From an uncultured Clostridia bacterium (GTDB lineage Bacteria > Bacillota > Clostridia > Christensenellales > Pumilibacteraceae), in assembly GCA_947581755.1 (NCBI GenBank), contig CANPVN010000005.1:1-64000 (forward strand): a stretch of 64,000 nucleotides of DNA. Reading direction: 5' to 3'. Positions 3,779 to 21,752 of the stretch are shown here, one piece after another. Every line of letters starts with the position of its first letter. Position 1 is the stretch's first letter. The notes beneath the pieces are model-generated. The model was not told the origin of the DNA. It did not search any database and saw nothing but the letters and a program-made list of their open reading frames with translations. Made by a program: the position numbers and the translations under genes.

Positions 3779-3806
3779 ATTAAAAGATATGAAACGATGT
3801 GGAGCA

Positions 3807-6232: not shown

Positions 6233-6259
6233 ATTTGCCTCCTTAAGTGTTGCCTTACT

Positions 6260-6288
6260 ATTCTAAACTTATGAAATCTCTAAATCAA
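6260..6288 (-). promoter_or_regulatory. internal dcw promoter ahead of murE
   Basis: -35 TTGATT (6283-6288) and -10 TAGAAT (6260-6265) are 17 bp apart, in the gap between spoVD and murE. The same hexamer pair with the same spacing drives rpsT in this window. It would allow murE-mraY-murD-ftsW to be expressed separately from spoVD. Confidence 0.6.
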
Positions 6289-6324
6289 TAGAGAGGTAAA
6301 ATTAGTTACGTTTAGACATATTTT

Positions 6325-8226: not shown

Positions 8227-8233
8227 AGTGATG

Positions 8234-8848
8234 TTATCCTCCTATTATCGAACTCACCCACTTACAAAAAGAATCAAACCAATTAGTCCTTTGTTCATAA
8301 GAAACAGGTTCATGGATTTCCACAAGAGTAACCTCACCTACACTTTCGATACCTTCCATACCATTGCCATAGGCTCTGCCGGTAATATAATCGGGATCGG
8401 AGAGTTGATCTATACGATTTGCTTGATCGGTGAGCTGTTCGGCTTTTACGGAATATTCGTTTTGCAGACTGTCCACTCTGCTTGAGGCGTCGCTCACGGC
8501 AATGCCCGTTGCAATAACAATCGCAGAAAGTATTATTACCGCCAACATATAAACAGCCAACATTACTTTTGTTTTGACTTCCATTTTTTCTCGGCTGTTT
8601 TTATTGTTTTCATTCGCCTTATGAAGCATTGTTTCATAAGTCGGCATATAGATTTCGGGATCTCGAGTCACGACGGTCTGTGTGACTTTTTTATTAGCGA
8701 CAGTGTTGGGACGAGTAGGCTTTGAATACTCAAAATCATTTTGGGTATCTTGAGGCACTTCAGTCATAGGAATATCGATATAACTCTTTTCGTTTTCGTA
8801 AGACACCGATCGTTCTTGTTCGGTTGAAGTTCTTCTTTTTGTTACCAT
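8234..8848 (-). CDS. ftsL: FtsL-like bitopic septum protein
   Basis: This 204-residue protein has a long hydrophilic N-terminus (about 95 residues, cytoplasmic), one membrane helix at about 96-118, then a short coiled-coil-like stretch (SRVDSLQNEYSVKAEQLTDQANRIDQLSDP). This is the plan of FtsL/FtsB divisome proteins, and it sits at the ftsL position between rsmH and spoVD. Sequence similarity in this family is low, so the call rests on topology and position. The cytoplasmic tail is much longer than in FtsL from Bacillus. Confidence 0.75.
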   Translation of the reverse strand: MVTKRRTSTEQERSVSYENEKSYIDIPMTEVPQDTQNDFEYSKPTRPNTVANKKVTQTVVTRDPEIYMPTYETMLHKANENNKNSREKMEVKTKVMLAVYMLAVIILSAIVIATGIAVSDASSRVDSLQNEYSVKAEQLTDQANRIDQLSDPDYITGRAYGNGMEGIESVGEVTLVEIHEPVSYEQRTNWFDSFCKWVSSIIGG

Positions 8849-8872
8849 TTTATTTTTTACTCCTTAAAAATA

Positions 8873-9790
8873 TTACTTTTTTTCTATAATTCTGAGTATG
8901 GCACTCTCGCTTCTTTTGTTGTTTTCTCTTTCGAGTTTTCCCGGTCTTATGGGTTTTCCCACATGAATACACGTTGCTTTGTGTCCGCATGCGCATATAG
9001 GTAAACTTTTATCGCAAATACAGTCTGTACACAGCAAGTTGAATGTTTGTTTTACTATTCGATCTTCCAAGGAATGGAATGCAATGACGCATAGTCTTGC
9101 ACCCGGAGCAAGCTTGTCCACAATATCATTGATAACGTCTTCGAGTCCGTTGAGTTCATCATTGACCTCGATTCTGATTGCCTGAAAGCATCTGGTTATC
9201 GAGTGGAGTTGGGAATCGTACGGAACGCTTTTTCTGATTATTTCGGCAAGTTCCGTAGTCGTTTCAATGGGAGCACGCTCTCTCCTTTTGATAATGTTCG
9301 CCGCAATCTTTTTGGAAAATCTTTCTTCGCCATAAGCGAAAAATATTTTTACCAATTCATCAAGCGAATATTCGTTAACTACGATTTTTGCATTCAACTT
9401 TTGAGTTGAATCCATTCGCATATCCAATTCACCGTCAAGGCGGAATGCAAAACCCTTATTCGGAGTATTTAGCTGATGGCTACTTAGACCTAAGTCAATG
9501 ATTGCTCCGTCGATTGTGTCGATTTTAAGTTGTTCGGCTATGTCGCCGAAATTCTTAAAATTGCTTTTTATAAGAGTAAATCTTCCTTCGTAGGCTTTAA
9601 GGCGTTCATAACCATGTTCGATAGCGTCGGAATCAAGATCTGTAGCGATTATTCTTCCTCCCGCTTGCAAAATCGCTTCACTGTGACCGCTTCCGCCAAG
9701 TGTAGCATCGAAATAAAGGCCGTCTTTTTTTATCTTGAGCGCGGAAATTGTTTCATCAAGCAGTACGGGAATGTGATAGGCGTCCGACAT
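8873..9790 (-). CDS. rsmH: 16S rRNA (cytosine(1402)-N(4))-methyltransferase
   Basis: Methylates N4 of C1402 in the ribosomal decoding centre using S-adenosylmethionine. The 305-residue protein has the RsmH start (YHIPVLLDETI), the SAM-binding DATLGGSGHSEAI, the IDLGLSSHQL loop and the C-terminal VIAFHSLEDRIVK. One base separates its ATG from the mraZ stop, so it is co-transcribed as the second dcw gene. Confidence 0.97.
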   Translation of the reverse strand: MSDAYHIPVLLDETISALKIKKDGLYFDATLGGSGHSEAILQAGGRIIATDLDSDAIEHGYERLKAYEGRFTLIKSNFKNFGDIAEQLKIDTIDGAIIDLGLSSHQLNTPNKGFAFRLDGELDMRMDSTQKLNAKIVVNEYSLDELVKIFFAYGEERFSKKIAANIIKRRERAPIETTTELAEIIRKSVPYDSQLHSITRCFQAIRIEVNDELNGLEDVINDIVDKLAPGARLCVIAFHSLEDRIVKQTFNLLCTDCICDKSLPICACGHKATCIHVGKPIRPGKLERENNKRSESAILRIIEKK

Positions 9791-9791
9791 C

Positions 9792-10229
9792 TTACAGATA
9801 ACCTTCGTTCTTTGTCAATTCTTCGTCATAATCTTGGTTGTTAAATTCTTCTTCGACTTTATCCCAATTTTCTTGACTCCAAATTTCCACACGGTTGAAG
9901 TTACCTACGGTGACTATGTTTTTCTTCAGTTGCGCATGCGCAATAAGTTTAGGCGTCAATAACGTTCTACCTTGCGCATCATCTTCGATTATAAAACCGG
10001 AAGTCATAATTCTTCGACGGAGAGAACTGAAACTTGTGGTAGATAATTTGTCATTACTCATTTCCTTGAACATTTCCTCTGCCATATCTTCAGTCATAAC
10101 CAACAGACAGTTATGAGGACCGCAAGTTATAAATAAGCGCTTATCTTTTCCAAGCCCTTCCTTAAGCTTAGCAGGTATTCTTATGCGACCCTTTTCATCC
10201 ATTTGATGTGTATATGTACCTGCTAACAT
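9792..10229 (-). CDS. mraZ: transcriptional regulator and dcw-cluster repressor
   Basis: MraZ is an AbrB-fold DNA-binding protein that binds repeats in its own promoter and controls the division and cell-wall cluster. The true start is the ATG at 10229 (MLAGTYTHQMDEKGRIRIPAKL), 145 residues. GGAGGG lies 10 bases upstream, and a longer in-frame start at 10271 would lie upstream of the promoter -10. Two tandem SpoVT/AbrB-like halves are visible, each with an RIxIP-type or equivalent segment. It is the first gene of the cluster. Confidence 0.95.
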   Translation of the reverse strand: MLAGTYTHQMDEKGRIRIPAKLKEGLGKDKRLFITCGPHNCLLVMTEDMAEEMFKEMSNDKLSTTSFSSLRRRIMTSGFIIEDDAQGRTLLTPKLIAHAQLKKNIVTVGNFNRVEIWSQENWDKVEEEFNNQDYDEELTKNEGYL

Positions 10230-10261
10230 CCTTAGGCTTTCCCTCCATTCTTGATAGTTAT

Positions 10262-10290
10262 ATATTAGCACATTATTTAACCATTGTCAA
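10262..10290 (-). promoter_or_regulatory. dcw promoter, sigma-A consensus
   Basis: -35 TTGACA (10285-10290) and -10 TAATAT (10262-10267) with exactly 17 bp between them. The predicted transcription start falls near 10255, upstream of the mraZ ATG at 10229. The -35 hexamer is interleaved with the MraZ boxes. Confidence 0.85.
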
Positions 10291-10309
10291 CCATTTTTAT
10301 CCATTTGAT
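10281..10309 (-). promoter_or_regulatory. three MraZ-binding boxes at 10-bp spacing
   Basis: On the minus strand the trinucleotide TGG, within an AATGG context, recurs three times with a 10-bp period (complement CCATT at 10281, 10291 and 10301). Known MraZ operators are three or four short TGG-containing direct repeats about one helical turn apart directly upstream of mraZ. Here they overlap the -35, which fits autorepression by blocking RNA polymerase. Confidence 0.75.
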
Positions 10310-10337
10310 AGAATTTTTTTTCCACTTTATGTCCCTA

Positions 10338-10376
10338 AATAAAAAATATAGCTGCCAACAAAAATGACAGCTATAT
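10338..10376 (-). terminator. intrinsic terminator of the 2-oxoacid oxidoreductase operon
   Basis: A perfect 9-bp stem ATATAGCTG/CAGCTATAT (10346-10354 with 10368-10376) is followed on the minus strand by TTTTTTATTT. It lies 30 bases after the gamma-subunit stop and before the mraZ promoter, insulating the two operons. Confidence 0.85.
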
Positions 10377-10405
10377 GATGAATTAATATAAAGTATAGTT
10401 AAAAA

Positions 10406-10945
10406 TTATTTTTTCAAGTTTTTAATATACTCTCTTCCCTTTTTAAGGCATTCAATATTAATGGGAATTACCTTGGGTTTGTTTTCGAATACGTGCTCGA
10501 TAGCTTGTATTGCAAACTCTTCTTTAAGGTCTCCGAAGAGTTCCAAAAGAATACCCAACATTATGATATTTCCGCCCTTGGGATTGATTTCCTGAGCGAT
10601 CGTATCAACGGGAATTTTATAAACGGTAACATCCTTTCTCTTAACGTCGGTGGTAACAATATCCGAGTTAATGAGGATCGTTCCTCCGGGTCTGACGGAA
10701 TCCTCGAATTTTGCGAGCGAAGGATCGTTAAATGCAAGCAAATAATCGGGATGGTCGATAACGGGAGCGGCAATAGGCTCTTCGGAATAAATGACGGAAC
10801 AGTTAGATGTACCGCCTCTCATCTCGGGACCGTAAGAAGGCAACCACGAGGTATTGAGGTTTTGGAACATTGCGGAATAAGAAATAAACTTACCGAGCGA
10901 AAGAACGCCCTGACCGCCGAAACCACTTATGGTTATCTTTTTCAT
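10406..10945 (-). CDS. 2-oxoacid:ferredoxin oxidoreductase, gamma subunit
   Basis: Gamma subunit of a four-subunit ferredoxin oxidoreductase of the POR/KOR/VOR superfamily. At 179 residues it matches the family and shows the N-terminal GFGGQGVLSLGKFIS. It is the last gene of the operon ferredoxin-alpha-beta-gamma, one base after the beta subunit. The enzyme decarboxylates a 2-oxoacid to the acyl-CoA and reduces ferredoxin. Substrate (branched-chain 2-oxoacids or 2-oxoglutarate) cannot be settled from sequence alone; annotators often label this set vorABCD. Confidence 0.9.
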   Translation of the reverse strand: MKKITISGFGGQGVLSLGKFISYSAMFQNLNTSWLPSYGPEMRGGTSNCSVIYSEEPIAAPVIDHPDYLLAFNDPSLAKFEDSVRPGGTILINSDIVTTDVKRKDVTVYKIPVDTIAQEINPKGGNIIMLGILLELFGDLKEEFAIQAIEHVFENKPKVIPINIECLKKGREYIKNLKK

Positions 10946-10946
10946 A

Positions 10947-11693
10947 TTATTTCTCCTCCTTTGTCGTATCTTTAATTACACCCAACGGATAGAAAGGAAT
11001 TGCTCTTTCGGTTACGAATTTTTGAGCATCGAGCGGCGTCAAATGATAGTTTGACGGGCAACTTGCCAAAACTTCGATGAAGGTAAAGCCTTTCTTTGCG
11101 ATCTGGAGTTCGAAAGCTTTTTTGATTGCTTTCTTTGCGGCATTGACATGCGCGGGATTATCGCAGGCAACACGTTCGATGTAGCAAGGACCGGTAAGGG
11201 TCGCCAACATTTCGGCAACATGTATAGGGTTACCGTTGATCTTGGGATCACGACCGTAAATACAAGTGGTGGCTTTTACGCCTTCCATTGTTGTAGGCGC
11301 CATCTGACCGCCTGTCATACCGTAAATACCGTTATTGATGAAGATGATTGTAAAATTCTCTCCTCTGGCTGCCGCATGAACGGTTTCGCACATACCTATA
11401 CTCGAGCAGTCTCCGTCGCCTTGATAAGAGAACACCAAAGCATCGGGATGAACACGTTTTACACCTGTAGAAACAGAAGGCGCTCTACCGTGCGCAGCCT
11501 GAAGCATATCGCATTTGAAATAATTATAACCGAATACCGCGCATCCGACGGGCATAACGCCTATTGCGTTATCACACATTCCGAGTTCCTCTATAGATTC
11601 GGCAACCAATCTATGAACTATACCATGAGTACATCCCGGGCAGTAATGCAAGGGAGTGTCGGTAAGAAGCTGAGGTTTCTTTTGAACTATCAT
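10947..11693 (-). CDS. vorA: 2-oxoacid:ferredoxin oxidoreductase, beta subunit (TPP-binding)
   Basis: Carries the thiamine diphosphate site of the complex. The 248-residue protein has the cysteine motif CPGCTHG near the N-terminus and the TPP/Mg signature GDGDCSSIGM, with the partner NNG about 30 residues on. The C-terminus EVLASCPSNYHLTPLDA is typical of this subfamily. Spacing of one base on both sides shows a tight operon. Confidence 0.9.
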   Translation of the reverse strand: MIVQKKPQLLTDTPLHYCPGCTHGIVHRLVAESIEELGMCDNAIGVMPVGCAVFGYNYFKCDMLQAAHGRAPSVSTGVKRVHPDALVFSYQGDGDCSSIGMCETVHAAARGENFTIIFINNGIYGMTGGQMAPTTMEGVKATTCIYGRDPKINGNPIHVAEMLATLTGPCYIERVACDNPAHVNAAKKAIKKAFELQIAKKGFTFIEVLASCPSNYHLTPLDAQKFVTERAIPFYPLGVIKDTTKEEK

Positions 11694-11694
11694 A

Positions 11695-12747
11695 TTATTT
11701 ACCCTCCTTTATATATTTAACAAGGTCGCCGGGCATCATGACGTTACCACCGGCTCTGCCGTAAAATTCAACGGGCTTTTTGCCGTTTACGGCAAGTCTT
11801 ACGTCTTCAACCATTTGACCCATGCTGAGCTCTACTGTTACAAACTTCTTAACAATACGCTTCTTTGCATATTTTGCAATAGTTTTTGTGGGATAAGGAT
11901 ATAAAGTAATGGGTCTGATAAGACCTGCTTTTATTCCTTCCTTACGAAGTTCGTCTATAGACGCTTTGCAAATACGAGCAACGGAACCGTACGCTACGAA
12001 AATATACTCTGCATCGTCGCAAAGATAAGTTTCGACTTCGGTTTCTTTCTTTGCAATTTCCTCATAAATTTGAGCAAGATGAATATTGTGCTCTTCCAAC
12101 TCGTTTGCATCGATTTTTATAGAGTTGATAAGTCTTTGTGTTCCGCCGTTGTTGCAGTCTACCGCCCAATCTTTTTTAGGCAAGCGGTTGATATTCTTCA
12201 TAGGAGGAATTTCTGCGGGCTCCATCATCTGTCCCAACATACCGTCGCCGATAAGCATAACGGGAACACGATATCTATCTGCCGTATCAAAAGCTTTATA
12301 TGTAATATCAACAAATTCCTGTATGCTTGCGGGTGCATAAACTATACAATGATAGTCACCATGTCCGCCGCCTTTGGTTGCTTGGAAGTAATCGCCCTGA
12401 GAAGGCTGTATACCGCCGAGACCGGGACCGGAACGCATCATATTGATGATTACACAGGGAACCATAGCGCCTGCAAGATAGCTGATACCTTCTTGCTTAA
12501 GGCTTATTCCGGGGCTGGACGAAGAAGTCATTGCTCTTCCGCCGGCACCTGCTGCACCGTAAACCATGTTGATAGCCGAAACTTCGCTCTCGGCCTGTAC
12601 GAACGAGCCGCCCACTTCATTAAGTCTCCAGGACATATATTCGGGTATTTCGTTCTGCGGAGTTATAGGATATCCGAAGAAATATCGGCATCCTGCCGCA
12701 ATAGCTGCTTCTGCTATTGCTTCATTACCTTTCCAAAGTTTTTTCAT
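11695..12747 (-). CDS. vorB: 2-oxoacid:ferredoxin oxidoreductase, alpha subunit (VorB-like)
   Basis: The alpha subunit (350 residues) binds the 2-oxoacid and contributes to the TPP site. Signatures include CRYFFGYPITPQNEIPEYM, QAESEVSAINMVYGAAGAGGRAMTSSSSPG and GPGLGGIQPSQGDYFQATKGGGHGDY. This long form with the QGDY segment is what databases usually call 3-methyl-2-oxobutanoate dehydrogenase subunit VorB, which points to branched-chain 2-oxoacids; 2-oxoglutarate remains possible. It lies between the ferredoxin subunit and the beta subunit. Confidence 0.88.
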   Translation of the reverse strand: MKKLWKGNEAIAEAAIAAGCRYFFGYPITPQNEIPEYMSWRLNEVGGSFVQAESEVSAINMVYGAAGAGGRAMTSSSSPGISLKQEGISYLAGAMVPCVIINMMRSGPGLGGIQPSQGDYFQATKGGGHGDYHCIVYAPASIQEFVDITYKAFDTADRYRVPVMLIGDGMLGQMMEPAEIPPMKNINRLPKKDWAVDCNNGGTQRLINSIKIDANELEEHNIHLAQIYEEIAKKETEVETYLCDDAEYIFVAYGSVARICKASIDELRKEGIKAGLIRPITLYPYPTKTIAKYAKKRIVKKFVTVELSMGQMVEDVRLAVNGKKPVEFYGRAGGNVMMPGDLVKYIKEGK

Positions 12748-12777
12748 ATTTTTGCTCTCTCCATAAAATATTTCTTT

Positions 12778-12990
12778 TTAATCTCGTTCTACGGTAATAA
12801 CGCAGTCCGGGCACATGGTAGCGCACATAGCGCAACCGATACATGCGTCCATATCAATGCACTCTGCCACATTGTATCCTTTGGCATTGGTTCTTTTTGA
12901 TAATGCCAAAATCTTTTTGGGACACGCATTGATACACAACGAACAACCCTTACAATAGGATTCGTCAAAGTGTAATTTTCCTTTTGCCAT
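12778..12990 (-). CDS. 2-oxoacid oxidoreductase delta subunit, 2x[4Fe-4S] ferredoxin
   Basis: A 70-residue protein with two complete four-cysteine cluster motifs, CKGCSLCINACP near residue 14 and CIGCAMCATMCP near residue 51. It is the electron-transfer subunit of the operon it heads. An AGGAGG site precedes the ATG. No clear sigma-A promoter is visible in the 50 bases upstream; only a CGGCAACTGCCG hairpin is seen there. Confidence 0.92.
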   Translation of the reverse strand: MAKGKLHFDESYCKGCSLCINACPKKILALSKRTNAKGYNVAECIDMDACIGCAMCATMCPDCVITVERD

Positions 12991-13040
12991 AAAAATTGTT
13001 CCTCCTGATGATTTTATAAATCACGGCAGTTGCCGAAAAT

Positions 13041-13862
13041 TTATTCGTTTTGTCTTTGCTTGAAGAAAATAAATTGTTGCGCATATCCGGCAAGATTGCC
13101 GTATCTGTCCAAAAAGAACTTCATTACCTTTGCGGGAGTATCGAGAATTTGAGTCTTACAGGCTTTGAATATCCAGGTGTCTACGGGATAAGTATCAAAT
13201 CTATGTAATCCGAATAAAATTATGCAATCCGCAACTTTGGGACCTATTCCCTTTAGAGAAAGCAAAATTTTTCTCGCCGATTCTGTATCGCTCTGTTGTA
13301 ACTCATCGAGCAGATTTTCCGAACAAAGTCTCCGAACCGTAGAATATAAATAGTTGTCTCGGAAGCCGCAGCCAATCATTCTGTAATCGTCGATACTTAA
13401 CGCTTTAAGACTTTCCAATTCGGGAAAAGCAAAATATTCCCCGCGATCTTCGCCCGCTCTTTTGCAGAGTCTTTCTATGATCCCTTTTATTCTCGGAATA
13501 TTATTGTTTGCCGAAATTATAAAAGAAATTATCGTTTCGTATAAATCCTGCTTAAGAATACGTATTCCGTTACCGAAGTCCAACGCATCTTTCAACTCGG
13601 GAAATTCGGAAAGTCTGTCGATAATCTCGGAATAGTCGGTATGCAAATCAAAATAATCTATAAAATATTCAGGCTCGGCGGTGATTATTTCCACATGATC
13701 CCGATATTCGATTACTCTGCAACGTTTGCCCGCGGAACAAACATAATAATCGTTCTCATCGTTTTTAAAATATCTGAATAACTGCCCGCACTCCAAAGTT
13801 TTGGAAACGCTGAAATCCTTGTTGTCGACAATTAATTTATTTTCTTGTTTTTCAATGTACAT
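13041..13862 (-). CDS. OGG1-type 8-oxoguanine DNA glycosylase/lyase
   Basis: A base-excision repair enzyme that removes 8-oxoguanine. It has the N-terminal OGG domain and a HhH-GPD domain. The helix-hairpin-helix LSLKGIGPKVADC holds the catalytic lysine (about K209 from the ATG at 13862), and YPVDTW holds the catalytic aspartate (about D228), matching the K and D of OGG1. The ATG at 13862 is preferred because the only earlier start is a TTG inside the L27 terminator. No Shine-Dalgarno sequence is obvious. Transcription may depend on read-through from rpmA. Confidence 0.9.
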   Translation of the reverse strand: MYIEKQENKLIVDNKDFSVSKTLECGQLFRYFKNDENDYYVCSAGKRCRVIEYRDHVEIITAEPEYFIDYFDLHTDYSEIIDRLSEFPELKDALDFGNGIRILKQDLYETIISFIISANNNIPRIKGIIERLCKRAGEDRGEYFAFPELESLKALSIDDYRMIGCGFRDNYLYSTVRRLCSENLLDELQQSDTESARKILLSLKGIGPKVADCIILFGLHRFDTYPVDTWIFKACKTQILDTPAKVMKFFLDRYGNLAGYAQQFIFFKQRQNE

Positions 13863-13874
13863 TTTTACATACAA

Positions 13875-13904
13875 AAGGGTTGCAATGGATATGCAACCCT
13901 TGAA
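13875..13904 (-). terminator. terminator of the L21-Prp-L27 operon
   Basis: Perfect 10-bp stem AAGGGTTGCA/TGCAACCCTT (13875-13884 with 13892-13901), followed on the minus strand by TTTTGTATGT. It lies 13 bases after the rpmA stop and directly abuts the glycosylase gene. Confidence 0.8.
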
Positions 13905-13913
13905 GTATCGGGT

Positions 13914-14186
13914 TTACGCCGGGTAAACGCTTACCTGCTTTCTGTTGTTTCTGTTTTCGAATCGGACAATACCGTCGGATAAAGCAAATAAAGTATCGTC
14001 ACTTCCCCTGCCTACATTGTTGCCGGGATGAAATGCGGTTCCGCGTTGTCTGACAAGTATATTGCCTGCTCTCACAAGTTGTCCGTCTCCTCTTTTTACA
14101 CCCAAACGTTGCGCTGCGGAGTCTCGACCGTTTTTAGACGAGCCCATTCCTTTTTTATGCGCAAATAATTGTATATTAATAAACAT
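13914..14186 (-). CDS. rpmA: 50S ribosomal protein L27
   Basis: L27 reaches the peptidyl-transferase centre. The 90-residue protein begins [17 protein letters not shown]: in Bacillota this N-terminal extension is cut before the A/HKKG stretch by the protease Prp to expose the functional N-terminus, and the prp gene is adjacent. A GGAGG site lies in the 2-base gap region behind prp. Third gene of rplU-prp-rpmA. Confidence 0.98.
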
Positions 14187-14188
14187 TT

Positions 14189-14518
14189 TTATTTTACCTC
14201 CAATTTAATGAAATCCGAATAACTTTCGTATAAATCGGAAATCCCACACAACATCGTTTCGAGAATAATATCGGCGTCATGCCTGTCTTGGTCGGAAATA
14301 TCATCCGACAAAACCGCTTTCAAATAGCCCGCGTTATCATCCCTTTCAAGTTCTATTTTCAACCCGAGTACGGTCATGAGTCCCAAAACCGCTGTTTGAA
14401 TAATACTTGAAAGAGCCGCGCATACAATATCTTCCCCTTCGATACCGAATCCCGTGTGACCGGACGCCTCGATGGAAACGATGTGATTGAGTTTTCGATT
14501 CAGCTTTATCGACGTCAT
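14189..14518 (-). CDS. prp: ribosomal-processing cysteine protease Prp
   Basis: Cleaves the N-terminal extension of L27. The 109-residue protein has the two catalytic positions of the family: His in ASGHTGFG (about residue 21) and Cys in EDIVCAALS (about residue 33). It overlaps the rplU stop by one base (TGATG) and lies three bases before rpmA, the conserved context of Prp. Confidence 0.95.
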
Positions 14519-14805
14519 CAGATTTGTGTAATTTGCAAACGAGTAAAGGGTTGTCTGTGACCCTGCTTTCTACGCTCGTTTTTCTTTGCCTTATATTTAT
14601 AGACAATGATCTTTTTTGCTTTTCCGTGGCTGAGTACTTTAGCCGAAGCGGTTGTGGCAACGGGTTCAACCGTTTCGCCGTCAACTTTAAGCAACACATC
14701 AAGCTTTATTTCTTCGCCGACATTTGCTTCTATCCTTTCGACTTCGATAATATCGCCTTCCGATACTTTGTACTGCTTGCCGCCGGATGCTATAACTGCG
14801 TACAT
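14518..14805 (-). CDS. rplU: 50S ribosomal protein L21
   Basis: Primary 23S rRNA-binding protein. The start is the ATG at 14805 ([18 protein letters not shown]), 95 residues; AGGAGGTG lies 7 bases upstream and overlaps an earlier in-frame start at 14823, which is therefore rejected. The C-terminal [17 protein letters not shown] is typical of L21. First gene of rplU-prp-rpmA, behind a structured leader. Confidence 0.97.
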
Positions 14806-14831
14806 ATTTTTGCACCTCCTCACTGATGTCT

Positions 14832-14886
14832 CCGATGTTAAGGCAACTTACGTTTTCCATGGGACGCGCCCGCCTTTTCCAATCGG
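14832..14886 (-). ncRNA. putative L21 (rplU) leader, cis-regulatory RNA
   Basis: The minus-strand 5' UTR of rplU folds into three nested helices: CCGAT with ATCGG (14882-14886 with 14832-14836), AAGGC with GCCTT (14872-14876 with 14840-14844), and an inner GGG/CCC around 14861-14871. Ribosomal protein L21 leaders are a known cis-regulatory family in Bacillota; I assign this by position and nested structure, not by a covariance search. Confidence 0.5.
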
Positions 14887-14896
14887 CTCAATAAAT

Positions 14897-14926
14897 AGTA
14901 TATCTTATATATAAGATACTTGTCAA
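14897..14926 (-). promoter_or_regulatory. promoter of rplU-prp-rpmA
   Basis: -35 TTGACA (14921-14926) and -10 TATACT (14897-14902), 18 bp apart. The spacer contains the inverted repeat CTTATATATAAG. The transcript would start just upstream of the nested L21 leader. Confidence 0.75.
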
Positions 14927-15059
14927 GCAAAATAGAAGAAAAATTTTTTTCATTATAAAAAGAAAGGGGTTGAAATCGGTATTTCGCGGCAAAAAACTCC
15001 ATTTGTAATTTAATTTTGTTTCAAAATCGGATATTTTATAAAGTTTCTCTATTTGCATA

Positions 15060-15088
15060 TAAAAAGACGCGGCATAAAGCGGCGTCTT
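15060..15088 (-). terminator. terminator behind the DivIVA-like gene
   Basis: Stem AAGACGC/GCGTCTT (15064-15070 with 15082-15088), extended by an inner GC/GC pair, followed on the minus strand by TTTTTA. The interval 14927-15059 between it and the rplU promoter is AT-rich and I see no feature in it. Confidence 0.7.
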
Positions 15089-15097
15089 GAAAATATT

Positions 15098-15652
15098 TTA
15101 TTCCTCGAAAATTCCGAGATCTTTCATTATATCTTTTAAGTCTTCTGTCGGATGCAAAGCTTCTTCCAACGAAAACTCCTCTTCGGGCTTTTTATCCTCA
15201 TCGGGCTCTGCAAGTGTTTTGGATTTCATTTCGGAATGTAATCTTTTTGTTTCGTTTTTATATATTGTCTCGGTGTCCGCCTCTTTCAGAGACGCTATCA
15301 GTTTTGAAACTTTATCATTGAATTCTTTTTCGTTACCGCCATGACGTTTTACGAGCTTTGCATAATATTCCAACCATTTTTTGTGAAATTGTTCGAGATA
15401 AGCTATTTCATTTTCATATTTCTTTTTGGAAAGTTCTTCGAGTTCGGCAGCCTTTTGTTTTGCCGCATTCACGGTTTGTTCTATCAGATCCTTTTTCCTT
15501 CTGTAAGAATCGACCTCTTTTTCGAGTTCTTTGATAAGATTTTTTTGTTCGGCAATTCTGTCTCTCTGTTCCGTTAAGGACTCGTTCAAAGAATTTATAT
15601 ATGTATCGACCTCGGTTATACAGTATCCTTTCTTATCTATTCTGAATCTCAT
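15098..15652 (-). CDS. DivIVA-like coiled-coil protein
   Basis: The 184-residue N-terminus FRIDKKGYCITEVDTYINSLN matches the DivIVA membrane-binding motif (F..GY...EVD.Y...L), followed by a long coiled coil (about 22-95) and an acidic, disordered C-terminus. DivIVA-family proteins bind negatively curved membranes at poles or septa. It follows pncB after 6 bases, so it is probably co-transcribed with it; its cellular partner is unknown. It is not at the ylm/ileS locus where divIVA usually sits, so it may be a paralogue. Confidence 0.7.
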   Translation of the reverse strand: MRFRIDKKGYCITEVDTYINSLNESLTEQRDRIAEQKNLIKELEKEVDSYRRKKDLIEQTVNAAKQKAAELEELSKKKYENEIAYLEQFHKKWLEYYAKLVKRHGGNEKEFNDKVSKLIASLKEADTETIYKNETKRLHSEMKSKTLAEPDEDKKPEEEFSLEEALHPTEDLKDIMKDLGIFEE

Positions 15653-15658
15653 TATTAA

Positions 15659-17083
15659 TCACTCCTTGATTCCCATTAAAGATTTTTTCAAATTATATAA
15701 TTCATCGGAAATATCCACACGATAAATGTGAGGTCTTACCATTCTTTTATATTCGTCCCAGAATTTGTCAAGTTCGGATTTGCAGTAATTTGCGCTGTCT
15801 TGCAGAGACGGCGTCGTATAAACAAGTTCACCGCGTTTGAATATTTGTTTTAACAGCGGACGCGCTTCGTAATCTTTTAAGGTAATGCTCTTCCACCTTT
15901 CCGTTTCGTGAGTAAGAGTCAATGGTTTTTCAAGTTTTTCGCCTTTCAGAGCGATAAGATCGGCTATGGCTTTACCGGTGGATCTACCGTATATTCTGTA
16001 CAATTCTTTGAATCCCGGATTGGTAACTTTTTCCAAAGAGTCCGAAATTTTCATTCTTGCTTTCGGCTTGCCGTCAATCTCTATTTGAGACATTTTATAT
16101 ACGCCTCCGAGACTTGGAGTGTGTTCGCTTGTAATCAACTTTGTGCCTACGCCGTAAACATCTATTTGAGCATTTTGCAATCGCAAGGATTCCAAAACAT
16201 TTTCATCAATATCTCCGCTTGCAAAGATTATTGCATCCTTAAATCCTGCCGCGTCAAGCATTTCTCTTGCCTTTTTGGATAAATATGCAAGATCTCCGCT
16301 GTCCAAACGAATACCGACAGGTTTGTGTCCTTCCGCTCGCAACCTTTCGAAAACTTTGATTGCATTGGGTATTCCGGATTTCAGAGTATCATAAGTATCC
16401 ACCAACAACAGACAATCGTCGGGATAAATATCCGCAAAAGCATTGAAAGCGTCGAGTTCGGAGTCGAAACTCATGACCCAACTGTGCGCATGAGTTCCTT
16501 TTACCGCGACATTGAACATTTGTCCCGTAAGAACATTTGATGTGCCCGAGCAACCGCCTATAATAGACGCTCTTGCTCCGTATATTCCCGCATCCGGACC
16601 CTGCGCGCGCCTGAGTCCAAATTCCGCTATACTTTTCCCTCCGGAAGCCCTTACGATTCTGTTGGATTTTGTTGCGATCAAAGTTTGATGACCTATTATA
16701 TTCAATAACGCAGTTTCTATAAGTTGCGCTTGCGCAAGCGGCGCTTTTACTATCAAAATAGGTTCATAAGGAAAAACTATTTCTCCTTCGACTACCGAAT
16801 AAATATCTCCTGTAAATTTAAAACTTTTGAGATAGGAAAGAAAATCTTCGCCGAATAAATTCAGAGATCTGAGATATGCGATATCCTCATCGGAAAAATA
16901 TAAATTTTTTATGTAATCGATGGCTTGCTCGAGACCCGCGCTTACCGCGAGATTCAATTCGCCCTTTTGTCGAAAGAATAAATCAAAAACGGCTTCATTT
17001 TCATGTGTTCCGCATTTGAAATAGCCGTTCATCATAGTCAACTGGTATAGATCAGTCAATAAAGTAAAATGCCTATTTTCCAT
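15659..17083 (-). CDS. pncB: nicotinate phosphoribosyltransferase
   Basis: Converts nicotinate and PRPP to nicotinate mononucleotide in NAD salvage. The 474-residue protein starts LLTDLYQLTMMNGYF and has FGLRRAQGPDAG, SGTSNV and the GIRLDSGDL motif of the type II phosphoribosyltransferase fold. It overlaps the membrane protein gene upstream by 11 bases. NAD kinase is encoded elsewhere in this window (25534-26376). Confidence 0.96.
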   Translation of the reverse strand: MENRHFTLLTDLYQLTMMNGYFKCGTHENEAVFDLFFRQKGELNLAVSAGLEQAIDYIKNLYFSDEDIAYLRSLNLFGEDFLSYLKSFKFTGDIYSVVEGEIVFPYEPILIVKAPLAQAQLIETALLNIIGHQTLIATKSNRIVRASGGKSIAEFGLRRAQGPDAGIYGARASIIGGCSGTSNVLTGQMFNVAVKGTHAHSWVMSFDSELDAFNAFADIYPDDCLLLVDTYDTLKSGIPNAIKVFERLRAEGHKPVGIRLDSGDLAYLSKKAREMLDAAGFKDAIIFASGDIDENVLESLRLQNAQIDVYGVGTKLITSEHTPSLGGVYKMSQIEIDGKPKARMKISDSLEKVTNPGFKELYRIYGRSTGKAIADLIALKGEKLEKPLTLTHETERWKSITLKDYEARPLLKQIFKRGELVYTTPSLQDSANYCKSELDKFWDEYKRMVRPHIYRVDISDELYNLKKSLMGIKE

Positions 17084-17600
17084 TTTTGTCTCCTTTTGGA
17101 AAAATTGCTCCGATTATTATTATCCCGATAAGAATGACCGCTATCGGCAGAATAATATTAATCGAAATTATATTCCCCGCTTCCATAGAAAATAATATTG
17201 ATAAAATACCGAAAAACAAGGAAATAAAAAGATGCAATCTGATTTCTTTGCTCATGCACAGAGTTATCAACGATGCCGCGGCGGGCGCGGCGATGAAAAT
17301 CGGATAAAGATTGGCATACGACAGCGCAGATATTCCCTCTGCCAAAAACCCGACCGATGAAGATATGCACAAAAAAATGCCAAGCCACAGAAGCAAAGAA
17401 TTTGTCTGTACAAACGAATTTACCGTCATTGCGAGTCCGATAAACAGCAATGCGGCAAAAAGAATTATAAGCCTAAATTCGTAAACAGTCAACCCGAGTC
17501 CGACAAACAACAAAAAAATTCCGAATAATATTGTGGCTATCCCATCAATTATTATACAGATTTGTTTTTGTGTATTAGAAAGACTTTCTTTGGACTTCAT
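17073..17600 (-). CDS. polytopic membrane protein of unknown function
   Basis: I do not recognise a family. The 175-residue protein is strongly hydrophobic with about six membrane helices, short polar ends (MKSKESLSNTQK at the N-terminus, PKGDKNGK at the C-terminus) and a brief internal loop MSKEIRLH. It is transcribed from its own promoter (17633-17662) and overlaps pncB by 11 bases, so a link to nicotinate uptake or NAD salvage is possible but unproven. Confidence 0.75.
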   Translation of the reverse strand: MKSKESLSNTQKQICIIIDGIATILFGIFLLFVGLGLTVYEFRLIILFAALLFIGLAMTVNSFVQTNSLLLWLGIFLCISSSVGFLAEGISALSYANLYPIFIAAPAAASLITLCMSKEIRLHLFISLFFGILSILFSMEAGNIISINIILPIAVILIGIIIIGAIFPKGDKNGK

Positions 17601-17662: not shown

Positions 17663-17770
17663 GGCAAATTGACGATGTTTGAAGTCTGTTTTTAAAGAAT
17701 TATGGCAGTTTTCTATAAATCGAAAAGAATAATATCTTCAAAAGTGCTTGTTATATATGATACAATACTA

Positions 17771-17787
17771 TTTATGTCTGACATAAA
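17771..17787. repeat. palindrome TTTATGTC-T-GACATAAA, copy 1
   Basis: A perfect 8-bp inverted repeat around one central base, six bases behind the VanW-protein stop and about 110 bp upstream of the promoter at 17633-17662. A 16-base core is identical to the copy at 20514-20529. No U-tract follows on either strand, so a protein-binding site is more likely than a terminator. Confidence 0.6.
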
Positions 17788-17793
17788 CAGTCA

Positions 17794-19032
17794 TTATGGC
17801 GCTATTGCAATCAAGCCGTAAGTTGCAGAATAAGTATCGGTTCTTATCAACTTTTTATTTATAAGTTCGTTTTGTTCATTATAGTACAACAGATAACCTT
17901 TGCTTTTTGTTTCGCCTTTTCCATACCAAATACGTTTTTTTGTTCCCGATTCGGAATTTTCTTCGAGATACTCATATTTTTCATCTACAACCTCTCTGTC
18001 ACCCGGCGGATCTTTTTTATAGATTTCTTCACTCATGGTTTGAATATAATAAGGCATTTTTGTTCCGTAAAATTCAACGACAGCAGATGTGTCCGTTCCG
18101 TAGCAACGTATAAATACGGGAGTTGTTCCGCTATTTGTAAATTTTAAGTCACTTGAACCCGAATTTACCATAGCGTCAAATGAAGGCGCGACATAGGAAG
18201 GCTGCAAAGAATGATTATTTGCCATTGTGATTTGCATATCGGCAAGCAAGGCGCAGTTATATAATGTTGTCGAGGCTTGACAGACGCCTCCTCCGTATCC
18301 TTTTATATAATTCCCCTTTACTATTATTTTTGCTTCCTTAAAACCCGCGCGCTCGTTTCTTACTCCAACCGTCTCATTAAAACTGAATTCATCTCCGGGT
18401 TCGAGAATTGTCCCGTTGATTTTACTTAATGCAAGACGGATATTATGTTTACGATTTTCATTACTTGCGGAATAGTCCGTAGAAAATCGAGCGCGAAGAT
18501 TTGTTAACTTCATATTGTCTTCCGTTGTAATATCTGCTTTTATCTCGTTGGGAGTAACATTAATTATCGGTGATTTTGTTTTTTTGAGAGAACAATAAAT
18601 CGATGAATACAGAGAATCTTCATCCGTTTTTCTTCCGGATTTTTCTGTAATAATCCTGAAATATTTGTATCCGTTCGGGGTAAATATAATTTTGCTGTTT
18701 TCGGGCTCTTTATCTATATTTTTTATTGCTGTGTCTACGGTCTTTTCGAGTAATGGAAAAGAATATAACATCGCCGTTTTAAAATCCGCTCCGGCATACA
18801 GGCATTTCTCCACCGCACATATTTTTTCGGGTAGGTCTGCATTGATTTTTCTGTAGTATAGTTCCTCAGCGACCAAGTGATTTGTAGGTTCTATGTATTT
18901 ATCCTCGTATGTTATGCTGTAATTTTCGTATTTTAAAGTAATCGTAGTTAGTGAATCGGGCTTAAAAGCGCATAAAAAAAGCGCTATGAAAAGATTAAAT
19001 ATCATAAATAATACGCAATAAACTCTTTTCAT
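17794..19032 (-). CDS. VanW-domain (YoaR-like) membrane-anchored protein
   Basis: An N-terminal membrane anchor (VLFMIFNLFIALFLCAF) is followed by an extracellular region with a VanW domain (about residues 185-330: ARFSTDYS, EFSFNETVG, GGGVCQASTTLYN, NHSLQPSYV). VanW proteins are common in Bacillota and lie beside glycopeptide-resistance genes in some strains, but their biochemical role is unknown. The ATG at 19032 is chosen because GGAGG lies 6 bases upstream and overlaps the earlier GTG at 19044. 34 bases follow the cca stop, so both may share a transcript. Confidence 0.85.
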   Translation of the reverse strand: MKRVYCVLFMIFNLFIALFLCAFKPDSLTTITLKYENYSITYEDKYIEPTNHLVAEELYYRKINADLPEKICAVEKCLYAGADFKTAMLYSFPLLEKTVDTAIKNIDKEPENSKIIFTPNGYKYFRIITEKSGRKTDEDSLYSSIYCSLKKTKSPIINVTPNEIKADITTEDNMKLTNLRARFSTDYSASNENRKHNIRLALSKINGTILEPGDEFSFNETVGVRNERAGFKEAKIIVKGNYIKGYGGGVCQASTTLYNCALLADMQITMANNHSLQPSYVAPSFDAMVNSGSSDLKFTNSGTTPVFIRCYGTDTSAVVEFYGTKMPYYIQTMSEEIYKKDPPGDREVVDEKYEYLEENSESGTKKRIWYGKGETKSKGYLLYYNEQNELINKKLIRTDTYSATYGLIAIAP

Positions 19033-19066
19033 GTGCGCCTCCACAAATTTAATATGTGGGCAAACA

Positions 19067-20422
19067 CTATGTTTTATTCGATGCGTTTCTATATATTTTT
19101 ACCATTTTTGCCGCTCTCGCAAGTAACCACTCTCGGTTATTCAATTTGGGATTGAGTACGCAATCCCTGTATAAATCTGCCAAAATATTTCCAATAACTG
19201 CCCCGTGAGCGCCGAGTTCGATCAAGTCATCTCCGTCAATACAAAGTTCTTGAATCGACAAAGGAGTTCCGTCAATCAAAATTTTTTCTTTCATTGCTTG
19301 CAATTTATCGGCACTGTTAAAAACAAATTGGGTATCGAATCCGCAACCCCTGATATCAGCTTCTTTTAATTTTGTAATTTTATCAATTCTATTAAAATTA
19401 TTTACCACAAATAATTTAACTTTACTTTCCGATGCTTCTCCTTTCAGATCAAACATATGCGCTTTGACCAATGCTACGGTTTCATCGATTTCAAAATTCG
19501 AATATCTTAACCGTTTCATAATAGTTCTCGTAATTTCTGCGCCTATTACATCATGCCCTTTCATGTGCCCCAAGCTATCGATACATAAAGGTTTTCCTAC
19601 ATCATGAAATAATGCCGCCTCTCGTATATCGGGCGCGGAATATTTTACCACTTGAAAAATATGTTCCAAAACATCATATTTATGATATTTTGGATTTTGC
19701 CTTACTCCATTACATAGATTCAATTCAGGTAAAATAATTGCAAGCAGCCCCGTTTCTTTTAGTAATTTCATACCTCGATAATGAGCGTATTTAACTCCGT
19801 AAGCGATATCGGCTCTTAAAATTTTTTGTAATTCGTCCCTTATCCTTTCGGAAGAAATGTCTTTTATCAATGCCGCGTTATCGCAAATCGCCTTTTTTGT
19901 AGTATCTTCTATTTCAAAATCAAGTTGCGCGGCAAACCTGACCGCACGCATAAGTCTCAAACCGTCGGCGCGCAATGTCGAATCGCTTATTTTACGAATT
20001 TTTTTGTTTTTAATATCGTCGTATCCGTTCAAAGGATCCACTGTTTTTCGTTGGGTTATATCGAAATATATTGCATTTACGGTAAAATCTCGCCTCAACG
20101 CGTCCTCTTCGAGTCCGCAACCGAACGTTACGGAATCCGGAGAATGTCCTTTTGTATATGTTTCTTGCCTGAAAGGGGTATACTCGTATTCTTCACCGTG
20201 AAATATAACCTTATAGGTACCGAGACGTCGATTGATACATGTGATAGGTATTTCTTTTGAAAACATTTCTTGCGCGGGTAAAATACCGCAAATATCTTTA
20301 TCCGTCTGTTCTTCTTTTCCGAATAGCAAATAATTGCGTACGCTTCCTCCGACAAGATAAAGGTGTGCATTTGCAGCCTTGGATAATTCATATAAATTTT
20401 GAGATACCGGCATTTCCATCAT
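19067..20422 (-). CDS. cca: CCA tRNA nucleotidyltransferase with HD domain
   Basis: Adds or repairs the 3' CCA of tRNAs. The 451-residue class II enzyme has the nucleotidyltransferase motif LVGGSVRNYLL with metal-binding DKD, RRDFTVNA, and the RNA-binding VRFAAQLDFEIE region. A C-terminal HD phosphohydrolase domain follows (ALFHDVGKP, about residues 268-276). The tRNA-Ser in this window encodes its own CCA, so repair may be the main role. The promoter places transcription start almost at the ATG, suggesting a leaderless mRNA. Confidence 0.93.
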   Translation of the reverse strand: MMEMPVSQNLYELSKAANAHLYLVGGSVRNYLLFGKEEQTDKDICGILPAQEMFSKEIPITCINRRLGTYKVIFHGEEYEYTPFRQETYTKGHSPDSVTFGCGLEEDALRRDFTVNAIYFDITQRKTVDPLNGYDDIKNKKIRKISDSTLRADGLRLMRAVRFAAQLDFEIEDTTKKAICDNAALIKDISSERIRDELQKILRADIAYGVKYAHYRGMKLLKETGLLAIILPELNLCNGVRQNPKYHKYDVLEHIFQVVKYSAPDIREAALFHDVGKPLCIDSLGHMKGHDVIGAEITRTIMKRLRYSNFEIDETVALVKAHMFDLKGEASESKVKLFVVNNFNRIDKITKLKEADIRGCGFDTQFVFNSADKLQAMKEKILIDGTPLSIQELCIDGDDLIELGAHGAVIGNILADLYRDCVLNPKLNNREWLLARAAKMVKIYRNASNKT

Positions 20423-20428
20423 ATTACA

Positions 20429-20457
20429 ATTATAGCAAATTTAATAATCTTTGACAA
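20429..20457 (-). promoter_or_regulatory. promoter of cca-vanW unit
   Basis: -35 TTGTCA (20452-20457) and -10 TATAAT (20429-20434) with 17 bp between; TGC precedes the -10. Only TTGTAAT separates the -10 from the cca ATG, so the expected start of transcription is at the start codon. Confidence 0.75.
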
Positions 20458-20513
20458 TAATTACGCTGAAATTTATCGAAAAAAAATTCTCTATTTGAAA
20501 CAAAACAATGAGA

Positions 20514-20528
20514 TTATGTCTGACATAA
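20514..20528. repeat. palindrome TTATGTC-T-GACATAA, copy 2
   Basis: Second copy of the palindrome at 17771-17787. It lies between the dacF terminator and the cca promoter. The two copies bracket the cca-vanW unit, 2.7 kb apart. Confidence 0.6.
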
Positions 20529-20530
20529 AT

Positions 20531-20565
20531 AGAAAAGAAGCCCTGAAAATTCCTTTCAAAGCTTC
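20531..20565 (-). terminator. terminator of dacF
   Basis: On the minus strand GAAGC-TTT-GAAA pairs with TTTC-AGG-GCTTC around the loop GGAAT, followed by TTTTC. It begins 21 bases after the dacF stop. Confidence 0.7.
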
Positions 20566-20585
20566 AATATTCTCGTGATTTACGA

Positions 20586-21752
20586 TTACCAATTTCCTAT
20601 AAAATCATTTATTATATCAAGATAAGACGCCTTCTTTATATCTTCTCTTACAACAAGCGGGATCGTTGTGCTTTCCGTACCGTCTATTTCTATTTTTATT
20701 GCGCCGACCCTGTCTCCCGATTTTAAGGGAGCTTTTAAATTGTTGATATCGAATTGTATTACAGGATCGTTTTTGTCACCTTTTTTAAGAAGATAAAAAT
20801 AATCATCTTCGGGATACAATTTTGTGGTTTTTTGTTTTGCGCCTATGATTGCGTAATCTCCGTCTATTGCCTTGTCTTTGAAAATAATTTGTCTGGTTTC
20901 ATAATTTCCGAAGCCGAAATTAAACATCTTACTGACTTCGGCGTTCCTTGTTTTTGCATCGGGCGCTCCGATTGCAACGGATATCAATCTTGTCGAACCT
21001 CTTTTTGCGGTAGCAGCCAAACAAGATAATGCCTCGGAAGTAAAACCGGTCTTTCCGCCATCGCAGCCCTCATAAAATCTTATAAGTTTGTTCGTATTGG
21101 TAAGTCCCGTGATTCTGCCGCTCGGATGAACAAAATCATACATCCATATGCCGGAATAATCGAAAAATTTCTTGTGACTTATCAGATGTCTGAACATAAT
21201 TGCCGCATCTAAGGCGCAACAATATTGATTGGGCGCGGGAAGTCCCGTACAATTGACAAAATAAGTATTTGTCATTCCCCATTCCTCTGCTTTTTTGTTC
21301 ATTTCGGAAACAAAACCTTCGACGCTTCCGCTGAGCATCTCGGCTATTGCCACACAGGAGTCATTTGCAGAAGCGATAATGATGCTTTTTATCAGCTCTT
21401 CCGTTTTGTAAGGGCTTCCTGCATCCAAATATGCCTGAGAACCGCCCATTGATGCGGCGTTAACGCTTGCCGTTGTATCATCATCCAATTTGATTTTACC
21501 TTCATCAAGCGCTTCGAAAGCCAAATTCAGAGTCATGATTTTTACCATACTTGCAATCGGCAGTCTTTGTTCGGGGTTTTGGGTATACAAAACTTTTCCC
21601 GTATTATAATCCATTATAACTGCCGATTTGCAATTATATCTTATATCCTTAGTCTCCTTTATCGGTTGTTCGGCAAACACTTCATTTTTGACGGGTGCAA
21701 TTATAATTGTAAGCAATACCAACAAAAGGACTGTAAATACTCTTTTTTTCAT
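20586..21752 (-). CDS. dacF: D-alanyl-D-alanine carboxypeptidase (DacF/PBP5 family)
   Basis: Removes the terminal D-Ala from peptidoglycan stem peptides outside the membrane. The ATG at 21752 (MKKRVFTVLLLVLL) is chosen: GGAGG lies 6 bases upstream and a signal peptide begins directly. Catalytic motifs are S68-MVK71 (counted from that ATG), SANDS and GGKTGF. A C-terminal PBP5-type beta domain and an amphipathic end (DIINDFIGNW) follow. In spore formers DacF acts on the forespore cortex; the surrounding sporulation genes fit this. Confidence 0.92.
   Translation of the reverse strand: MKKRVFTVLLLVLLTIIIAPVKNEVFAEQPIKETKDIRYNCKSAVIMDYNTGKVLYTQNPEQRLPIASMVKIMTLNLAFEALDEGKIKLDDDTTASVNAASMGGSQAYLDAGSPYKTEELIKSIIIASANDSCVAIAEMLSGSVEGFVSEMNKKAEEWGMTNTYFVNCTGLPAPNQYCCALDAAIMFRHLISHKKFFDYSGIWMYDFVHPSGRITGLTNTNKLIRFYEGCDGGKTGFTSEALSCLAATAKRGSTRLISVAIGAPDAKTRNAEVSKMFNFGFGNYETRQIIFKDKAIDGDYAIIGAKQKTTKLYPEDDYFYLLKKGDKNDPVIQFDINNLKAPLKSGDRVGAIKIEIDGTESTTIPLVVREDIKKASYLDIINDFIGNW

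Follow-up and report, generated by a model that had tools for sequence, protein, structure and literature searches.

A palindrome repeated around the replication terminus of uncultured Clostridia and a candidate PadR-family membrane protein that may read it

The closest described system of repeated terminus sites pairs MatP, a ribbon-helix-helix protein, with matS (GTGACRNYGTCAC), a palindromic site without polarity. We know of no MatP-like terminus organiser in Clostridia, nor are we aware of membrane helices or a PadR domain in the terminus protein ZapT. Terminus recombination is likewise linked to a single Xer gene beside dif in XerH/difH. The matS site is reported to be 13 bp long with 23 copies in 800 kb (PMC3330122), ZapT of Caulobacter is described as coupling the Z-ring to the replication terminus (PMC7188993, PMC7858052), and XerS is reported to be linked to difSL (PMC2731167). 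Here we analyse a 64,000-nucleotide stretch of DNA from an uncultured Clostridia bacterium (the window; positions 1-64000 of contig C5 in genome G000, which has 58 contigs and 1,671,451 bases) that carries two exact copies of the palindrome TTATGTCTGACATAA, and we compare this palindrome and its surroundings with the systems above.

Like matS, the palindrome is short, repeated in the terminus region and nearly absent elsewhere, as in the related genome G013, where the dif-bearing contig holds every one of the 15 sites with at most one mismatch. Unlike matS, its full form is CTRWTTATGTCWGACATAAWYAG, 23 bp with helically phased flanks, and unlike MatP the candidate protein combines a PadR domain with membrane helices, is encoded beside dif and belongs to a Clostridia lineage. 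As a non-MatP terminus protein, the candidate would resemble ZapT, from which it differs in lineage. The best reading is of a MatP/matS-like system in which the protein has no relation to MatP and carries its own membrane anchor, with both the binder and the tethering predicted rather than observed.

G000 contains four exact copies of the palindrome and none of the reversed pattern, and 32 sites with at most two mismatches compared to 9 for the reversed control. A sequence-only reading of the window had proposed such a genome-wide count and had judged the repetition to be more than chance, as these counts confirm. The two exact copies outside the window lie inside an mtaB-like gene (C1:124822) and 6 bp past a tyrosine-recombinase gene (C13:16811). 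Across 101 genomes (G000 and 100 relatives), 84 exact copies occur in 21 genomes, 80 of them contributed by the relatives, compared to a single reversed copy; all but one fall in family f1, and seven of the eight genomes of genus g17 hold 4-11 exact copies each. The strict form CTNWTTATGTCWGACATAAWNAG was found in 12 stretches among ~85,000 species genomes, all 12 of them in metagenome-assembled genomes of uncultured Clostridia. Selfish spread in viruses was considered and set aside, as the 111 IMG/VR stretches with the 15-mer are near chance level by our rough, uncomputed estimate.

The distribution of the sites is clearest in G013, with 41 sites at up to two mismatches compared to 7 for the reversed pattern. 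Contig C1 of this genome holds 3 of 3 exact, 12 of 12 one-mismatch and 18 of 26 two-mismatch sites; it makes up 476 kb of ~1.9 Mb, so that finding 15 of 15 there by chance has a probability of 0.25^15, or ~1e-9. In 20 sampled stretches of ~16 kb each along C1, the GC skew is positive with genes on the plus strand up to ~160 kb, and negative with genes on the minus strand from 176 kb, and this flip places the terminus at ~170 kb. The only dif of the genome lies there, at 169,240, and dnaA is on a different contig. The 15 sites with at most one mismatch span -165 to +237 kb of dif, 14 of them within 166 kb, and thus occupy both replichores rather than the single one that had been considered; the leading-strand central base is A in 9 and T in 6, without strict polarity. 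In G003, the skew of C1 flips at ~320-330 kb and all three exact sites are on this contig, while in G022 it flips between ~208 and 225 kb of C1, with dif at 213,155 and two of four exact sites on the same contig.

The window itself has negative skew throughout, with 55.9 kb coded on the minus strand and 3.7 kb on the plus strand. The ten G000 sites with at most one mismatch lie on contigs C1 (5), C5 (2), C13 (2) and C2 (1), on which 23-62 percent of the tested genes have counterparts on the sampled G013 C1, compared to 0, 0, 0, 3, 4, 4, 9, 20 and 48 percent on nine contigs that lack sites of this quality. Since the window genes map -63 to +214 kb from the G013 dif, the window is a terminus-proximal piece, and synteny, skew and dif place G000 on the terminus plan of G013. 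The copies are thus confined to the surroundings of dif and the GC-skew flip; they occur on both replichores and have no polarity. Many of them are in coding sequence, yet they are not scattered randomly through it, as they fall within one chromosomal region. Of the two roles suggested from the sequence alone, a regulator or a chromosome-organising site, this clustering supports the second.

In the window, the palindrome and its flanks occupy the following positions.

17768..17790, no strand: terminus palindrome, site 1, with its 15-bp core at 17772-17786 and the 23-bp extended form CTATTTATGTCTGACATAAACAG
20512..20532, no strand: terminus palindrome, site 2, with its 15-bp core at 20514-20528, an exact match
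20430..20610, no strand: flanks of site 2 with helical AT/GC phasing, ~90 bp to either side of base 20521

Both cores are exact and stand where they were first noticed. The identical stretch common to the two sites is TTATGTCTGACATAAA, which confirms the 16 shared bases reported earlier, although the palindrome itself is one letter shorter at 15 bp. Site 1 is the top-scoring site of G000 under model R1 (24.5 bits, E 5.7e-5), and site 2 scores 23.1 bits (E 1.6e-4).

The form of the site was established from an alignment of 77 distinct exact sites, leaving out 7 of the 84 (all five of G028 and two of the three of G003). The full motif is an odd palindrome with C at -11 and G at +11 in ~66 percent of sites, mostly A or T adjoining the core, and a central W that is T in 74 of 77 sites after orientation. 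Beyond the core, composition is conserved and base identity is not: the flanks alternate between AT-rich and GC-rich every 10.5 bp out to ~90 bp, with AT maxima ~17, 27, 37, 48, 57, 68, 80 and 90 bp from the centre. The 10.5-bp power at 14-60 bp was 0.216, compared to a maximum of 0.0156 in 500 random-position draws from the same loci. An independent set of 28 G013 sites with one or two mismatches, which played no part in setting the phase, gave a mean phase score of z 1.91, compared to a mean of 0.02 (sd 0.22, largest 0.64) in 1,000 random sets. In the window, the flanks of site 2 score z 3.81, above the maximum of 3.44 among ~1,700 sampled positions. The site is thus a 23-bp odd palindrome centred in ~180 bp of helically phased DNA, and for this reason the DNA around it is probably bent or wrapped. 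A terminator or REP-like element was rejected given the lack of a T-run, the 1-base loop, flanks conserved only in their phasing and the restriction to the terminus.

Among the genes that start beside sites, one family recurs, in g17, in G024 and, at a one-mismatch site, in G000; the suggestion to look for conserved transcription factors near other copies led in this way to a PadR-membrane protein. It has an N-terminal PadR winged helix (PF03551, E 1.3e-19, 70.4 bits, cut-off 27), an acidic linker and a hydrophobic C-terminus. The G000 protein is encoded at C13:825-2741, its PadR domain spanning residues 1 to ~115. The protein has no Pfam match besides PadR and so is not MatP, a scan that covered the candidate alone, the genome not being searched for MatP. 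Profile A2 has matches in 110 of 171 relatives and in 57 of the 74 genomes of the family, some of those outside the family being short PadR proteins. The gene and dif share a contig within 13 kb in 13 of the 16 family genomes that have both, the exceptions being G020, G028 and G050. At 28 of 30 loci (L374-L403; of the other two, one was unparsed and one broken), the proteins are 532-860 aa long with three or four C-terminal membrane segments predicted by hydropathy only, and the winged helix is nearly invariant across genera while the linker varies. This acidic linker, ~270-590 residues long and containing repeats at these loci, is possibly phase-separating or length-tuned.

The palindrome also stands in front of this gene. 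Of the 29 promoters that could be read, 9, from genera g1, g11 and g17 (G000, G010, G016, G024, G029, G035, G043, G051 and G054), have a copy with at most two mismatches in the 260 bp upstream of the gene, and those of g17 usually have a second copy 41-43 bp further upstream. By eye, the palindrome of G000, G029, G035 and G054 directly precedes a TTGACA-N17/18-TATAAT promoter, beside the -35 box. The operator of genus g2 differs, with the form ACTAT-N7-ATAGT, and G001 of that genus has no exact palindrome; skew puts its terminus at ~C1:309-330 kb, where its PadR-membrane gene is also found (C1:311303). The G001 consensus TACTATGYCWGRCATAGTA, made by joining the outer bases of this operator to the family core, has 20 matches with at most four mismatches in 247 kb of the terminus contig C1, compared to one in 133 kb of C2 (reversed, 1 and 0). 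Operator and terminus motif thus seem to change together in g2. The PadR operators described so far carry ATGT and ACAT 8-10 bp apart (PMC3506622, PMC5050560), and the motif reported for cdPadR1 of C. difficile, TACT-N11/12-AGTA (PMC5050560), has the same form as TACT-N11-AGTA in G001. The candidate resembles LmrR, bcPadR1 and cdPadR1 in its winged helix and, if it reads the palindrome, in ATGT/ACAT half-sites and sites in its own promoter; those proteins are small and soluble, whereas the candidate is far longer, with its acidic linker and membrane domain, and most of the sites that it would read are outside promoters.

Taking these observations together, the explanation that we favour as a whole, with some confidence, is that the palindrome serves as the recurring DNA site of a system organising the replication terminus. 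A PadR-family protein encoded beside dif is the predicted and quite probable reader, which would also control its own gene through the same palindrome. It is evenly poised whether this reader draws the terminus together and tethers it to the membrane, probably where the cell divides; the idea is suggested because the protein is membrane-seated and the sites span several hundred kb of the terminus. The protein would read dozens of palindromes over a few hundred kb around dif and wrap the phased DNA around them, with one polypeptide serving as DNA reader, acidic and probably disordered spacer, and membrane anchor. Its membrane helices would fix the entire terminus to the membrane or septum, its gene, which lies beside dif and the XerS-like gene, would limit its own expression through the same site, and site and reader would have drifted together between genera. 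A single protein would then do what MatP and ZapB jointly do in E. coli. The full scheme, a one-protein anchor in which a membrane PadR with an acidic arm reads, wraps and tethers the terminus while limiting itself and co-drifting with its sites, has in our view about an even chance of being correct. Its role would be of a known kind, that of MatP/matS and ZapT, and its site, protein architecture and lineage are new within the open-access literature, in which we found no paper on the palindrome motif or on a PadR protein at the terminus, subscription papers being outside the scope of that search.

Several observations weigh against this interpretation. Contigs C8 and C9 of G000 account for the 20 and 48 percent values above and map within 60 kb of the G013 dif, yet have no site with at most one mismatch, so that site density is uneven, and site 1 in the window has flanks without clear phasing (z 0.04). 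G016, a 96 percent complete g17 genome, has weaker copies and no exact one, and in G047 one contig carries dnaA together with two exact sites, at distances of 14 and 47 kb from it, so confinement to the terminus may be looser in g17. With respect to the reader, G013 has the clearest terminus cluster, yet the 420 bp upstream of its PadR-membrane gene contain no palindrome; genus g8 shows only a conserved element that is related but weaker and lies near the -10 box, and in G003 the gene lies ~250 kb from the skew flip. In family f3 (G062), a protein of this type is encoded at ~65 kb from the flip, and no palindrome was seen to recur. The ATGT/ACAT half-sites are present with a spacer of 3, compared to the 8-10 bp of known PadR operators. 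Finally, TACTATGYCWGRCATAGTA was written after five TACT-N11-AGTA matches had been seen on C1 and none on C2, which makes the G001 test, though not its controls, partly circular.

Two of these points, the operator spacing and the G013 terminus sites without a counterpart before the PadR-membrane gene, would be expected if a different terminus protein, MatP-like or XerS-interacting, read the sites and regulated that gene incidentally. We regard this as unlikely, since two PadR proteins are reported to bind their own promoters (PMC3506622, PMC5050560), the PadR-membrane gene is linked to dif in most genomes that have both, and operator and terminus motif seem to co-change in g2.

A further alternative is that DNA gyrase or topoisomerase IV has strong, terminus-specific sites in the palindromes. 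Their phased flanks would wrap on the enzyme, the sites would remove supercoils or links between converging forks, and the PadR-membrane protein would be no more than an autoregulated neighbour. Type II enzymes cut with a 4-bp stagger, which puts the symmetry axis between two bases; the palindrome has a central W and for this reason is unlike a type II enzyme site. Using gene positions from our own simple gene caller, 32 of the 77 aligned sites are intergenic, and 21 of these lie within 20 bp past a stop codon, compared to 9.9 percent of intergenic positions at the same loci (binomial 3e-14, with related genomes counted separately and sites not fully independent), a preference for post-stop DNA that would suit this alternative. 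The E. coli gyrase motif is reported to have similarly phased GC variation, with a period of 10.75 bp at -63 to -17 and 20 to 66 (PMC6379681), whereas phasing here reaches ~90 bp, past 66. The resemblance to gyrase is limited to the flanks, which are phased around a centre with a period of ~10.5 bp (PMC6379681, PMC12393610), since the gyrase motif is degenerate and genome-wide, while the present sites have a sharp odd palindrome, longer phased arms and confinement to the terminus. Taken as a whole, this alternative is improbable.

An ordinary transcription-factor regulon, PadR-type or DdrO/RDRM-like, is very doubtful and already largely refuted by position. A few copies do lie in promoters, those of cca and the PadR-membrane gene, and the half-site equals that reported for the Deinococcus radiation response motif (RDRM), TTATGTcATTgACATAA (PMC1978522). 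However, 45 of the 77 aligned sites are in or overlap genes, which also disposes of the proposal that the motif might be confined to intergenic regions, and most of the intergenic ones stand just past stops, all within a terminus-confined set. The RDRM is a 17-bp palindrome with a 3-bp spacer upstream of repair genes, unlike the present site with its 1-bp spacer and mostly non-promoter positions; identity with it was rejected, TTATGTC/GACATAA being a resemblance only, and the half-site match is probably a coincidence.

The site in the mtaB-like gene bears on the same point. It lies at codon ~107 in a variable stretch (L210-L239; 31 of 32 sequences parsed) and is kept with 0-2 mismatches in six genera, namely g1, g8, g9, g14, g15 and part of g17, with codons ATG TCW GAC ATA or near amid diverged surroundings; among the parsed sequences it is absent from g2, g5, g10 and g11 and from G035 and G039 of g17. 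A codon or protein constraint was rejected, given that these codons persist while neighbouring residues change, and on this comparison of sequences selection keeps the DNA and not the protein. Sites within genes or just past stops, the lack of polarity and the retention of the mtaB site across genera together indicate that this is not an ordinary promoter motif. Other genes with recurrent copies in g17 include a second carboxypeptidase gene and several unnamed ones. Polar fork-trap sites of the Tus-Ter or RTP-Ter kind are highly improbable, for although several sites flank the terminus, the palindrome is perfect and its sole asymmetric base has neither strict replichore orientation nor opposite polarity on the two replichores.

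The dif site was located as an inverted repeat upstream of the recombinase at the skew flip, common to G000 and G013 (CTATTCGCAAAAGACAGCTTTTGCGAATAG in G000; local dif, CTATTCGCAAAANACAGCTTTTNCGAATAG), and the palindrome does not match its arms. With at most three mismatches, the dif pattern is found in 19 of 74 family genomes (at three places in G054) and not at all in reversed form, and it stands at the skew flip in G013 and G022; a search for a B. subtilis-type dif found none. In G000, G024, G029 and G035, dif has an exact palindrome 1.2-1.5 kb away, the G000 dif (C13:15594-15623) being 1.2 kb from the copy at C13:16,811. The G000 dif (L077) is of a type of its own, CTATTCGCAAAA-N6-TTTTGCGAATAG, and lies ~0.1 kb from a single XerS-like gene; 18 further genomes of the family show this pattern. 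The recombinase at the flip (Phage_integrase, 3.2e-30; best NCBIfam match XerS, 191 bits) is the chromosomal Xer. As in XerS/difSL and XerH/difH, a single Xer gene stands directly beside dif at the terminus, a pair linked as in streptococci and here in Clostridia; unlike XerS, this recombinase falls below the XerS cut-off of 267 bits, and the palindrome is separate from dif.

An inovirus-like prophage is inserted at the G000 dif (C13 ~3784-15592, L077); it encodes a Rep of the G2P type and, on inspection by eye, a Zot-like ATPase, and its junction is a 169-nt direct repeat of the Rep end that finishes in half of dif. This insertion and repeat mark dif, and not the palindrome, as the recombination site. 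A phage attachment site was rejected for the palindrome 6 bp from the recombinase gene, as that gene is the terminus Xer, found at the same place in G013, and the prophage uses dif; XerD half-sites were dropped once dif had been located. Contig C39 of G054 (L041) combines a dif-like site with a further PadR-membrane gene, the second of this genome, and a phage-type Rep gene that contains a palindrome. Phages that insert at dif may thus transport parts of the system or duplicate them.

The genes around the two window sites are given for context, with no functional link claimed for the first.

17794..19032, minus strand: VanW-like gene (Pfam VanW, 6.5e-45)
19067..20422, minus strand: cca-like tRNA nucleotidyltransferase gene (Pfam PolyA_pol, 1.3e-23)
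20586..21752, minus strand: dacF-like D-Ala-D-Ala carboxypeptidase gene (Pfam Peptidase_S11, 1e-66)

Site 1 stands 7 bp past the VanW-like stop, and site 2 lies 57 bp past the dacF stop and 91 bp upstream of the cca start, in agreement with their earlier placement. The further idea that they mark both ends of one transcription unit is not supported, as copies elsewhere bracket no units but stand alone or in groups of two or three spaced 1-5 kb apart, and in G013 no pair surrounds a cca-vanW unit. An ancestral site after vanW was ruled out, since G013 carries a different gene there, and the dacF-like gene has a 55 percent identical counterpart on the G013 terminus contig. Downstream of site 1, window positions 17073-17600 (minus strand) encode a 175-aa predicted membrane protein without a Pfam or NCBIfam match.

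If the proposed system is real, gut Clostridia would have a new means of organising the chromosome's end before division. The sequence-defined sites, dif, the adjacent recombinase and the candidate protein together make it testable at the bench, and the phased 180-bp sites would lend themselves naturally to probing DNA wrapping. With the variants of the motif among genera, one could readily test how sites on the chromosome change along with their reader.

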